Part shown: positions 25,373-29,694 of the stretch, one piece after another | Numbering within the stretch: position 1 is the first letter of the stretch | How the letters are laid out: every line of letters starts with the position of its first letter | Source: Candidatus Cloacimonadota bacterium | GTDB taxonomy: Bacteria; Cloacimonadota; Cloacimonadia; Cloacimonadales; TCS61 | DNA length: 64,000 bases | Assembly (NCBI GenBank): GCA_021734835.1 | Contig: JAIPIH010000001.1 | Span: forward strand, 1-64,000 | Direction of reading: 5' to 3' | Position numbers and translations under genes: made by a program | The notes under the pieces: model-generated | What the model was told of the DNA's origin: nothing | Databases searched by the model: none | Seen by the model: the letters and a program-made list of their open reading frames with translations, nothing else

Positions 25373-25556
25373 CTAATTCGAAGGAATGTCATGTATAACT
25401 TCAAAGAGGTATCAACTCGAATTGAGTTGGTCAAATCGATTTTCTACATCACTTCCCATGAGCTAACCATTGTAATATCTAAACCGATAAACTTCGTTAG
25501 TATAGTTCTATACCAGCGATTTATAGCATTGATATCCCTTTTACTTCAACCAGATG
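25373..25556 (-). pseudogene. Decayed second copy of the 3' end of the deoxynucleoside kinase gene
   Basis: Read on the minus strand this stretch aligns base by base with the last 61 codons of the intact kinase gene (27464-27650), about 70% identical by eye. Matching peptide pieces are SKRDINAINRWYRT against NKSDINALNRWYRT, and LFEVIHDIPSN against LFEVIYDTLSS at the end, with the same TAG stop (25373-25375). The copy is dead: a TGG codon has become TGA, and single- and double-base gaps shift the frame twice. Similarity stops near 25556. It lies in the same orientation as the intact gene and 1.9 kb from it, so the two copies form imperfect direct repeats around the phosphate cassette. The overlapping plus-strand reading frame at 25292-25582 is antisense to it and not a gene. 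Confidence 0.8.
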
Positions 25557-25588
25557 ATAAACATTTTTCAATCAAGATATAAAAATAC

Positions 25589-25617
25589 TTGACATATCAT
25601 ATCATCATTTCAGATAA
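25589..25617 (+). promoter_or_regulatory. Candidate promoter of the ArsR-polyphosphate cassette
   Basis: TTGACA at 25589-25594 is followed after 17 bases by a weak AGATAA. Around it TCATCAT (25602-25608) and ATGATGA (25625-25631) form a 7-base inverted repeat, a possible operator for the ArsR-type repressor encoded just downstream. Confidence 0.4.
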
Positions 25618-25644
25618 ACGTAATATGATGACAAGGAGGGTATG

Positions 25645-26010
25645 ATGCTCGATGAATTTGTGCTGTTAAAATTATCAAAATTATTTAATATTATCTCCAA
25701 CCAAATTCGTATAAAGATAATCTATACTCTTATGGAAAACAAAGCCTTAACTGTTACAGAAATCTCTGAGAAAATAAATATCCCCCAAAATACTCTTTCC
25801 GCTCATTTAAAAATTCTTTATGAAGGAGCTTTTTTAAAAAAAGAACAAAAATGGCGAAATGTTCATTACTCCTTAAAAGAACCTAAATTGAAAGAAATTT
25901 TGGAACTGGGTTCCAAGATTCTATACAATAAATGGGAAGGCAATTGGGAGAAAATAGCTGAAGCAAAAAGAAAAATGGAATCAATAAACAAACCACAAGG
26001 CGATAAATAA
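25645..26010 (+). CDS. ArsR-family winged-helix regulator
   Basis: A 121-residue protein with a helix-turn-helix typical of ArsR/SmtB repressors: LFNIISNQIRIKIIYTLMENK, then VTEISEKINIPQNTLSAHLKIL as the recognition region and a beta-wing FLKKEQKWRNVHYSL. No CxC metal-binding box is present, so a metal is not the obvious signal. The ATG at 25645 is five bases after AGGAGG; the ATG three bases earlier is too close to the SD. Its stop overlaps the next start by one base (TAATG). Being first in the cassette it probably controls the following polyphosphate genes. Confidence 0.88.
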   Translation: MLDEFVLLKLSKLFNIISNQIRIKIIYTLMENKALTVTEISEKINIPQNTLSAHLKILYEGAFLKKEQKWRNVHYSLKEPKLKEILELGSKILYNKWEGNWEKIAEAKRKMESINKPQGDK

Positions 26011-26300
26011 TGGGAAAAGTTATACCAAGATGGGAATGGCGAACATTTGGTGAAAATTTTACTAAAAATCCCGAGCTCAAGATGGTAGATGTAAAAAAAG
26101 TACGACATGGATATTTAGTAGATGACTCAATCGTAGAATTTGCTGAGGTGCAATTCAACGATGTTAGACTAAAAACAATAGCTGTGGAACATGTTGATCC
26201 TGAATTAGTTCTAAAAACCGTAAATAAATTGGAAGTGGAAAAATTCGAGAATACTAACTACATTAAAGCAATGAAACGTACCTTTGGGATGAACTACTAA
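26010..26300 (+). CDS. CYTH-like polyphosphate-associated protein, shortened
   Basis: A 96-residue protein that starts IPRWEWRTFGENF and continues VKKVRHGYLVDDSIVEFAEV, then TIAVEHVDPELVLKTVNKL and ENTNYIKAMKRTFGM. From memory these are the first block and the last block of a family of about 200 residues that sits beside exopolyphosphatases and looks like a CYTH triphosphate tunnel domain. The middle block is absent here, so the gene seems to have lost about 100 codons in frame near residue 20. Half the tunnel strands would be missing, and catalysis is doubtful. It overlaps the ArsR gene by one base and lies 13 bp before ppx. The family link is recalled, not tested. Confidence 0.55.
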   Translation: MGKVIPRWEWRTFGENFTKNPELKMVDVKKVRHGYLVDDSIVEFAEVQFNDVRLKTIAVEHVDPELVLKTVNKLEVEKFENTNYIKAMKRTFGMNY

Positions 26301-26313
26301 TTAGGGGAATTAT

Positions 26314-27225
26314 ATGAATAATTATGCAATTCTAGATATTGGGACAAATTCCATAAAATTCTTTATTTTTTCCATTGAAAACGGAGTGGTAAAGACCTTG
26401 ATAGATATTAACAACAATTCTCGCCTGGGTGAGGGAATGGCTAAAACAGGCAAAATTTCCGAAACAGCTATGACAAGAAATATCGAAGCTCTAGGAGAGT
26501 TTCAACAACAAGCACAGAAATACAATGTGGAAGAGATCACAGCAGTTGGAACAATGTGTCTCCGAAAAGCAGAAAACAGCAGAGAATTTATAGAAAAAGT
26601 TAAGAAAGAACTCGGCCTAGAAATAAAAGTTATTAAAGGTGAAGAAGAAGCTCGACTTTCCTATTTAGCGGTGCTTTCTACCATTGGCAAGACCAATAAG
26701 TACTTGTGCGTATTCGATACGGGCGGCGGCAGCACTGAATTTATCTTTAGCGAAGGTACCGAACTTAATAACCGTATCAGTTTGAATTTGGGAGCTGTAT
26801 ATCCAACTGAAAAATTCCTGCTATCGGATCCAGTTACATCAAAAGAACTGAAAGAGATGCTGTCTTATATGAAAGATTTCTTTCAAGAACGACTTAACTT
26901 ACGAAGTCCCGAGATACTTATTGGTATCGGCGGCACAGTTACCAGTATGGGAGCAGTTAAACATAAAATGACCAAATACGACCCTAAGATCATCCAGGGA
27001 AGCAAGCTTTGTTTGGTAGAGATCAACCAGCTTATAGAACTTTTCCGCAGTAAAACAATAGAGGAAAGAAAACAAATTCCCGGGCTGCAGGCTAAGCGTG
27101 CCGAAGTAATTTTAGCTGGAGCTGGAATTGTGAAAACCATTATGGATATCTTCCAAATAAACAGCATTACCATAAGCGATAGAGGACTGCGTCACGGCTT
27201 AATGTTCGATCTTTATTTAAAATAA
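26314..27225 (+). CDS. ppx: Exopolyphosphatase / guanosine pentaphosphate phosphohydrolase
   Basis: The 303-residue protein belongs to the Ppx/GppA branch of the ASKHA ATPase fold. The phosphate-1 loop is LDIGTNSIKFFIF at residues about 6-18, the phosphate-2 loop is CVFDTGGGSTEFIFS, and ILIGIGGTVTSMGAV is the adenosine-type loop. The catalytic Glu region is IKVIKGEEEARLSY. It is the short form (about 300 residues), without the C-terminal HD-like domain of E. coli Ppx. It should remove terminal phosphate from polyphosphate or convert pppGpp to ppGpp. AGGGGA lies six bases before the ATG. The neighbours (CYTH-like fragment, DUF47 relic) support a polyphosphate role over an alarmone one. Confidence 0.92.
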   Translation: MNNYAILDIGTNSIKFFIFSIENGVVKTLIDINNNSRLGEGMAKTGKISETAMTRNIEALGEFQQQAQKYNVEEITAVGTMCLRKAENSREFIEKVKKELGLEIKVIKGEEEARLSYLAVLSTIGKTNKYLCVFDTGGGSTEFIFSEGTELNNRISLNLGAVYPTEKFLLSDPVTSKELKEMLSYMKDFFQERLNLRSPEILIGIGGTVTSMGAVKHKMTKYDPKIIQGSKLCLVEINQLIELFRSKTIEERKQIPGLQAKRAEVILAGAGIVKTIMDIFQINSITISDRGLRHGLMFDLYLK

Positions 27226-27241
27226 ATTTAGGAGAAATAAA

Positions 27242-27489
27242 TTGCCCAGGATTTTTACCTATCAAGCGAAACAATTGGAGGCTGACATAGACGGCTATCT
27301 AGACAGAGTTAATACTGGCGGTTTACTTTTTTGGAGGGCATAAAAGCTTATATTGAAGGTAAAAATGACTACTTAGAGAAAAAATTCCAAGCAGATACCA
27401 ACTTGGAATCTGAAGCTCATGAAAAAGGACGTGAAACAAAAAGGTTATTGAGCTTTTTAACACCTAACTTGAAAGAGTATCATAAATGA
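27242..27489 (+). pseudogene. Truncated, frameshifted DUF47 (PhoU-like) phosphate transport accessory gene
   Basis: A TTG start at 27242 follows TAGGAG. The frame reads 33 codons (QAKQLEADIDGYLDRVN) and stops at 27341-27343. Adding one T to the six-T run at 27327-27332 restores a continuous frame that goes on AYIEGKNDYLEKKF, DTNLESEAHEKGRETKRLL, SFLTPNLKEYHK and stops at 27487-27489. The joined 82 residues match the first helices of DUF47 proteins, PhoU-like partners of Pit phosphate transporters that are normally over 200 residues. The 3' two thirds are missing: the frame runs into the last codons of the oppositely directed kinase gene (stop at 27464). Seen: both faults. Inferred: the truncation happened when this cassette joined the kinase gene. 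Confidence 0.65.
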
Positions 27490-28864
27490 CTTCAAACAGA
27501 TATCCTACATGAATACGATTTGTAAAATCGATTTTTTCTACATTGATCTCAATGACTTTACCTTTGTGATAGCCAAAACGATAAACATCATTAGCATAGG
27601 TTCTGTACCAGCGATTTAAAGCATTTATATCACTTTTATTCCAGCCACCTTCCATTTCCATCTCTCTCCCCCGCTGTTGTATTCTGCTCCAGGCAAGATC
27701 TGCTCTGCCTTTTAAAACTATTAAAAGATCAGGTGAGGGAATTTCATTACAGACTGTTTTGAATTTTGCAGTAAGCAGATCCAGCTCATTATCACTCAAA
27801 AATCCATCTTTGTGAAATTGATAGCAGAACACAAGGAGATCTTCCAGGAGCGATCTATCCATCACATAACTTTTTCCCCCACTTGTGCCTGTAATTTGCA
27901 GATTCTTACGCATTTGAAGAAAATGAAGCTGCAGATCATAACAATAAGTCTTTTTGTCTTTTAAAAATTTTTCCAAGAGGGGATTCTTTTCGGGATTCTC
28001 ATACAATCCGCTGATCTTTAAACTACGCTGCATTAATGCTGTTAATGTAGATTTTCCAAGCCCAACATTACCGGCAATTGAGATCAGGTTGGGATTTTGT
28101 TTCAAATAATTTTCCAGTTTTGTTTCAGCATCAATTGCTTTTAAAGTTGCAGCCGTTTCCGGAAGAGCTACCCATTTACTGATCCCAGGTGTTGTAACCC
28201 GCAGATCAAGCGATCTGATGCGCTCTACAATCTTGTTGATAGTATTTTCTAAATATTTATCTAAGGGTGTATCAACATTAGCATCTATCACCAGCACCGG
28301 ACATGTAACATGTCTGTTCACAAATTGATCATAAAGCTGATTTAATTGGATCAAATACTTTCTTGGAATTCCTGCTTCATTATCTCTGCCCCGTTCCCTG
28401 ATCCTTTCTTCCAAAACAGGAACATCTGCTTTTAAATAGACAATTAGATCCGGTTGAGTTATCTCCTGCGTCATCAGCTCGTAATTCCTCTGATAGGTTA
28501 GAAATTCTTCTTCGGTCATATTGCCTAATATCTTTTGAGCTATACCAAAAATATGGTAGTCTTCTGCCAAAGTTCTGTCTTCTAACACTATTCCTTTTCT
28601 GTCTTCAATCTGAAGCTGACGCTCTAATCTGCCATTGAAAAATTCTATCTGAGCCATAAAAGCGTTTCCGATCGGATCTTTATAGAAGGCATCTAAAACC
28701 TGAACATTGAATTTTTCTTGAAAGGCGTATACTTTTTCATCGCCAACTCTGTTGGGGATAGTTCCCAGTAAAAGTTCATTATACGGCTTTCTGCTTGCTG
28801 CCTCTACTAAAGTGGATTTCCCGACACCGATATTACCTACTATTCCAATTCTTAAATGTTCCAT
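27464..28864 (-). CDS. Tandem deoxynucleoside kinase (two dNK domains in one chain)
   Basis: The 466-residue chain holds two complete kinase domains of the dCK/dGK type, each normally a protein of about 210-230 residues. Domain 1 (about 1-225) has P-loop GNIGVGKST, the EDRT variant of the catalytic ERS/DRS motif and lid RIRERGRDNE. Domain 2 (about 260-466) has P-loop GNVGLGKST (265-273), DRSLLED and lid RIQQRGREME. They phosphorylate deoxynucleosides for salvage; two domains may cover two substrates, as in the paired dAK/dGK subunits of lactobacilli. The ATG at 28864 is preceded by AGGTGA. The 3' end is duplicated as a relic at 25373-25556. The gene runs six bases short of the following minus-strand partner upstream, suggesting an operon with the zinc-ribbon protein. 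Confidence 0.88.
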   Translation of the reverse strand: MEHLRIGIVGNIGVGKSTLVEAASRKPYNELLLGTIPNRVGDEKVYAFQEKFNVQVLDAFYKDPIGNAFMAQIEFFNGRLERQLQIEDRKGIVLEDRTLAEDYHIFGIAQKILGNMTEEEFLTYQRNYELMTQEITQPDLIVYLKADVPVLEERIRERGRDNEAGIPRKYLIQLNQLYDQFVNRHVTCPVLVIDANVDTPLDKYLENTINKIVERIRSLDLRVTTPGISKWVALPETAATLKAIDAETKLENYLKQNPNLISIAGNVGLGKSTLTALMQRSLKISGLYENPEKNPLLEKFLKDKKTYCYDLQLHFLQMRKNLQITGTSGGKSYVMDRSLLEDLLVFCYQFHKDGFLSDNELDLLTAKFKTVCNEIPSPDLLIVLKGRADLAWSRIQQRGREMEMEGGWNKSDINALNRWYRTYANDVYRFGYHKGKVIEINVEKIDFTNRIHVGYLFEVIYDTLSS

Positions 28865-28884
28865 TAATTCACCTAACAAGCACT

Positions 28885-29694
28885 TTAATCAAAAAGTTCA
28901 AAGTCATCCATACTTTGATAATATTTTTCAATTAAAATATAAGAGAACGGGATAGTAACTAAAAGTCCTAATCCGGCTAAGGCAGCACCGATGATGTTCA
29001 TAATAAAAATTCGAATCAGAATGAAAAATTGCTGCCAGCGTGTTTCTGCACTTGCCGTGTAACAAATTATCACAGCTTTTAGCGGATTCATTTGCTTGCG
29101 AATTATCAAGATAACAGCCGGGAAAGTGATCGTTATCCAATAAAGTACAAGTATCAGGCGGACTGGATGTAAAATGGGATCAACTTTTATTCCTAACAAA
29201 TATCCTGTACAAAGAATTTTTAACAACAGAAAGTAAAGAATGCTGAGCAAGACAAGCAGAAAATATTTCGGGTAGAATTTAAGAGCTTGTAAATAAAATG
29301 ATATTTTAAAAGGATGCTCTGTAAATTTCTCATTAAATCCAAACGGGATCAAGACAAGCGGCACTAATATCAACAACATGACGTTCGTAAAGAGATACTG
29401 ATCCAGCTTAAAGCTTTCCGCTAAGTCACTACGAAATATTATTCCCAAAGCAAGAAGTAAAAATGAAGTTAAGATCATAAAAATAGAAAATGGGTAATCT
29501 TGAGATTTTATCGTTTTGAATTTCTTCCATACTTTCTGATAGTTTACTCTTGCTGAAAGCGGACCGGATAAAGCACCGGTTGGCTGACCGCATACTTTAC
29601 AGAAAATAGCATTTTGATCTAATTCCGTATTACATTTAACATCAATTTTTTTTCCACCTTTGGTTTTTTGACTTTTTAATCCCTTACATTTCAT
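28885..29694 (-). CDS. Zinc-ribbon membrane protein of unknown function
   Basis: A 269-residue protein. An N-terminal ribbon carries CKG, then VKCNTEL and FCKVCGQP, enough cysteines for a zinc site though the first knuckle is irregular. About six hydrophobic segments follow between residues 75 and 260 (for example IFMILTSFLLLALGIIF and VMLLILVPLVLIPFGF). This ribbon-plus-membrane plan is common among uncharacterised bacterial proteins with DUF-style domains. GAGGGA lies three bases before the ATG, and the kinase gene begins about 20 bp downstream, so they may be cotranscribed. I cannot assign a role; transport, regulation or envelope assembly are all open. Confidence 0.75.
   Translation of the reverse strand: MKCKGLKSQKTKGGKKIDVKCNTELDQNAIFCKVCGQPTGALSGPLSARVNYQKVWKKFKTIKSQDYPFSIFMILTSFLLLALGIIFRSDLAESFKLDQYLFTNVMLLILVPLVLIPFGFNEKFTEHPFKISFYLQALKFYPKYFLLVLLSILYFLLLKILCTGYLLGIKVDPILHPVRLILVLYWITITFPAVILIIRKQMNPLKAVIICYTASAETRWQQFFILIRIFIMNIIGAALAGLGLLVTIPFSYILIEKYYQSMDDFELFD

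Follow-up and report, generated by a model that had tools for sequence, protein, structure and literature searches.

In Streptococcus pneumoniae, transformation makes tandem duplications, one of which spans 3,276 bp and has no flanking repeats (PMC3784515). In such merodiploids a stretch of the chromosome is duplicated in tandem, and the duplication can enclose incoming DNA. In homology-facilitated illegitimate recombination, foreign DNA is joined to a chromosome with at least one end unmatched to the recipient (PMC3240628). Integrative elements that enter the 3' ends of genes are marked by direct copies of the gene end flanking the inserted DNA.

Here we describe a locus in a Cloacimonadota genome at which two direct copies of the 3' end of a deoxynucleoside kinase gene (dNK) flank a foreign operon fragment, and which both resembles and departs from each of these systems. 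Whereas the pneumococcal merodiploids are fresh and unstable and mostly have 100-900 kb between their repeats (PMC3784515), the structure here appears to be an old, decayed scar of at least 1.5 kb. As in homology-facilitated illegitimate recombination, foreign DNA has been joined to the chromosome, but the captured fragment carries no visible homologous anchor and the nearest donor genome has no dNK. Unlike integrative elements at gene ends, the locus has no integrase and no foreign dNK 3' end, the copy was probably longer, and the cargo is a cut operon. The best explanation, to which we assign a probability of roughly 0.6, is that dNK and the 3' end of its neighbor ZnR underwent a small tandem duplication in place, that a foreign operon fragment was captured at the junction, and that the locus is the resulting scar. 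The initial annotation had offered local duplication with gene capture as the alternative to an integrative element, and the evidence favors that alternative.

The window analyzed is the first 64 kb (G000:C53:1-64000) of a 359-kb contig, from a genome that is 87% complete and counts Candidatus Tenebribacter among its GTDB congeners. The features of the locus, in order along the window, are as follows.

25373..25552, minus strand: dNK relic, a degenerate repeat of the final 184 bases of dNK, with 74.5% identity to 27464-27647
25555..25582, minus strand: putative remnant of the ZnR 3' end, matching 28916-28942, ordered and oriented as at the intact locus
25583..25641, plus strand: ArsR promoter region (TTGACA at 25589), which aligns with the rpsA-ArsR intergenic region of relatives
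25642..26010, plus strand: gene for an ArsR/SmtB-family regulator (PF01022, E 3e-10; NF033788 above cut-off)
26010..26300, plus strand: shortened 'CYTH-like' gene with 96 of 196 codons left after an in-frame deletion of ~100 codons
26314..27225, plus strand: ppx, an intact exopolyphosphatase-family gene (PF02541, E 1e-66)
27243..27449, plus strand: 5' part of a DUF47/PhoU_div gene, ~68 codons, frameshifted and cut off
27450..27463, minus strand: stretch past the dNK stop, TAGGTGTTAAAAA versus TAGGAGGTAAAAA in G006; its resemblance to the dNK/acid-phosphatase junction of relatives is, at this short length, suggestive only
27464..28879, minus strand: dNK, an intact two-domain deoxynucleoside kinase gene (PF01712, two stretches)
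28885..29694, minus strand: ZnR, a zinc-ribbon membrane-protein gene upstream of dNK (weak PF13240 match; syntenic in the genus)

The initial annotation had read the dNK 3' end as present twice in the same orientation, once intact and once decayed, and local alignment confirmed this repeat over 184 columns (E 2.8e-26). The alignment score of 175 compares with a maximum of 50 among 300 shuffles, and the relic is the sole second match to dNK inside the window. It lies on the dNK strand, frameshifted and interrupted by stops in every frame. Its outer neighbor is the TonB upstream region while that of the intact gene is ZnR-QueD, as in a tandem duplication. Searching the relic DNA across 40 genomes of the family returned the relic in the studied genome only; the remaining matches in congeners were the ends of intact dNK genes.

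Within the genus, dNK proteins are 85-86% identical, and at 15 conserved sites the studied dNK differs from at least 6 of 7 congeners. The relic reads as the studied genome at 11 of these sites and as the congeners at 3, and most likely therefore arose within the studied lineage. In phylogenetic trees it joins the intact dNK of the same genome with support of 92/89; the AU test does not reject a position outside the genus (p 0.37), the relic being short and decayed, which counts against our preferred reading. The changes private to the relic are spread evenly across codon positions (9/8/9), a sign that for most of its history it was probably not coding. Since the split its branch has reached 0.69 compared to 0.03 for the intact copy, which is more than one would expect of simple neutral decay and is a second point against our preferred reading.

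Other dNK-like sequences were seen beyond this locus. The studied genome carries a second, single-domain gene of 230 codons that is ~36-41% identical (L050, G000:C58, 23-715), and genes 64-68% identical to the window dNK occur on public contigs labeled Myxococcota and Woesearchaeota (L097, L099), which are probably mis-binned Cloacimonadota contigs or transfers. In the congener G005, dNK codon 109 is followed, where a contig ends, by an inverted piece of dNK 3' end that is 88.6% identical to the end of that genome's own dNK (L035, G005:C170, 5512-5587). We did not use it as a second natural case, as at a contig end it may be an assembly chimera or strain variant.

Two bases past the relic end begins a match to the end of ZnR, 28 bases long and AT-rich. 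Its score of 34 was reached in 14 of 20,000 dinucleotide shuffles and compares with a best of 26 among 228 other chunks of the window and a best of 29 among 78 chunks from other loci of the same genome. Reading 25553-25588 as homology to the region upstream of ArsR gave a best score of 18, against 34 for ZnR, and was rejected. We regard 25555-25582 as a probable remnant of the ZnR gene end. The match suggests that the repeat reached beyond the gene end, and the relic is thus probably what an internal deletion left of a copy that spanned dNK and the end of ZnR, originally at least 1.48 kb long, rather than an attachment site.

We compared the locus with that of six congeners (G001, G002, G005, G006, G007 and G009), reading synteny as far as each contig extends and joining the G005 locus from two contigs. 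All share the order mnmE-dxs-YsxC-QueD-ZnR-dNK, followed by an acid phosphatase gene and then a TonB receptor gene, and neither the relic nor ppx is present at the dNK locus in any of the six. Congeners without the cassette thus provide the empty sites for which the initial annotation had proposed to look, with the difference that the site there also holds the acid phosphatase gene (HAD family, PF03767, ~259 codons). Where an intact second kinase in relatives would have spoken for duplication and decay without insertion, they have this unrelated gene instead. The empty sites together with the foreign affinity of ppx, described below, bear out the proposal that the DNA between the copies was inserted. 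The studied genome (87% complete) lacks the acid phosphatase gene at the site, a search for it elsewhere in the genome was negative, and no remnant of it turned up beside the relic.

Between the copies, on the strand opposite dNK, lie ArsR, the shortened gene, ppx and the broken DUF47 gene, as initially annotated and as matches to PF01022 and PF02541 confirm. The window ppx has a full-length Ppx-GppA domain (PF02541 18-302, 225 bits) and scores 264 bits against TIGR03706, under the cut-off of 307. Relative to G026, a genome from another genus of the same family, ppx has dN 0.13 and dS 2.3, and the intact ArsR has dN 0.09 and dS 3.2. Purifying selection thus acts on both genes (dN/dS well below 0.1), with none on the DUF47 stub.

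The 'CYTH-like' label of the middle gene did not hold up: its full-length 196-aa relative has no CYTH match, and indeed no match at all, in searches of Pfam, NCBIfam and PDB sequences. It possibly represents a divergent CYTH fold. The 196-codon protein lies between ArsR and ppx and is conserved across the family, with IPRWEWRTFG at its start (e.g. L060 3008-3598, G003). Compared to the G003 protein, those from other genera are 88% and 85% identical (L144, G035; L145, G020) and that of the congener G005 is 88% identical; since the proteins from other genera are as close as the congener's, further transfers of the operon within the family are suggested.

The fragment corresponds to part of a phosphate/polyphosphate operon, ArsR-'CYTH'-ppx-DUF47-PiT, with a middle gene of 196 codons and the phosphate transporter PiT as its last member, that lies beside rpsA in G003, G004 and G005. 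In G002 the rpsA-linked operon (L062, G002:C170) lacks the 196-codon gene; the first genes of the operon adjoin rpsA in G020 and G014 too, and the gene set occurs in further genera. We found no description of this operon in the literature. The window holds the part from the ArsR promoter to about codon 68 of DUF47, and its genes and their order are those of the rpsA-linked operon up to DUF47. Unlike that operon, it lies at another site, its DUF47 is cut, PiT is absent, the middle gene is shortened and its affinity is to another genus. At the home rpsA locus, what remains in the studied genome is the promoter region of ArsR, a complete DUF47 and PiT; ArsR itself, the 196-codon gene and ppx are missing. 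Decay of the rpsA-linked operon recurs in relatives: G007 has only an ArsR stub (L109, G007:C77, 4293-4409), and G001 and G009 lack ArsR to ppx.

The window ppx is 80% identical to that of G026 and 68-73% identical to those of its own genus. G026 provides the best ppx match among 107 genomes of the order, and trees join the two with support of 100/99 (protein) and 100/100 (DNA), while a tree that places it in its own genus is rejected (AU p = 1e-5). G026 is likewise the partner of the DUF47 stub (85/87), whereas the home DUF47 falls with the genus, and ArsR agrees weakly with the G026 affinity (81/77). In an initial count of sites in the DUF47 stub, 10 were common with the home copy and 10 with the genus, and the stub had looked home-made. 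A copy of the genome's own rpsA-linked operon was ruled out once other genera were included, as both the stub and ppx then grouped with G026. Given the grouping of ppx with G026 and the loss of ArsR, 'CYTH' and ppx from the home operon, the fragment between the dNK copies is a horizontally acquired operon piece at a new site. Its source was probably, as part of our preferred explanation, a lineage of this family close to genus g18.

For the scar of duplication and capture we propose the following course. A tandem duplication would have taken in the whole of dNK together with the ZnR 3' end, and the foreign fragment would have been caught where the two copies met. The extra copy of dNK, which faces TonB, would then have been reduced to 184 + 28 bases by decay and the loss of ~1.27 kb, while the DUF47 stub decayed, the 'CYTH' gene lost codons, and ArsR and ppx would have remained intact. 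With the genome's own ArsR-'CYTH'-ppx lost at rpsA, the captured ppx would have replaced the native one at the new site, where it would be expressed, probably from a promoter of its own under ArsR control and unlinked to the PiT transporter. We infer that duplication and capture were one event, possibly through unequal sister-chromosome ends joined via incoming DNA, as in transformation-made merodiploids. That the locus is the fossil of such a merodiploid, in which a single event duplicated dNK-ZnR and trapped DNA of another genus whose ppx replaced the native gene, is a doubtful proposition in this full form. The duplication-and-capture reading also has to contend with further facts. Neither copy is followed by the acid phosphatase gene, so that one more deletion has to be assumed; the ZnR remnant offers only its 28 AT-rich bases; G026 has no dNK match, and such incoming DNA would bring no homologous anchor.

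Moreover, a duplication first and a capture later would fit nearly or about equally well, and template switching nearly as well. A plain dNK-ZnR tandem duplication followed by a separate insertion of the foreign fragment between the copies would accommodate every anatomical fact equally, but the second event would have to strike the duplication junction and there is no independent sign of two ages; we consider this course of events unlikely. Less probable still is template switching during replication, in which a strand would have left dNK past its stop, copied the fragment, resumed at the ZnR 3' end and copied dNK again. This would yield the structure, including the cut ends inside DUF47 and ZnR, in a single event, but no clear microhomology survives at the junctions and, with the fragment grouping with another genus, the template would need to have been incoming DNA.

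Least probable is the reading proposed initially, an integrative element that would have entered the dNK 3' end by site-specific recombination, supplied a new 3' end, displaced the old one to the far side, where it decayed, and later lost its integrase: the geometry fits (an intact gene beside the insert and a displaced 3' end on the far side in the same orientation), as do the foreign ppx of the cargo and the empty sites in relatives, but no element was seen at the dNK end in any of the relatives compared, the 1.9 kb between the copies holds no integrase or other mobility gene, the relic carries the studied species' own dNK sites, the ZnR remnant beside it is not expected of an attachment site at a gene 3' end, and the cargo is a chromosomal operon cut, seemingly at random, within a gene. 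The only ORFs between the copies are ArsR, the short gene, ppx and the DUF47 stub, with no integrase or recombinase within the insert or at its edge. A dNK 3' end supplied by an element is likewise not seen, because identity along the gene shows no break: over its last 177 bases the intact dNK is 76-80% identical to relatives, and over the rest 72-86%. The recombinase relic initially noted at 1-102 sits at the very start of the contig, with at least its 3' side cut off by the contig end, and lies 25 kb away with no visible link to the locus. The fragment at 1-99, on the minus strand, reads LRHSFATHLLEGGEDLR, which we take to be the box-II motif of tyrosine recombinases, and has unrelated-looking sequence on its 5' side.

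Together our results largely explain the locus as a scar of the ordinary kind that gene duplication and transfer leave, and not as a mobile element, and they caution against calling an integrative element solely because a gene 3' end is directly repeated on both sides of an insert. They indicate that a pair comprising a regulator and an exopolyphosphatase passed from one genus to another within an uncultured phylum and took up a new site without a visible mobile element, leaving behind the scar of a duplication.
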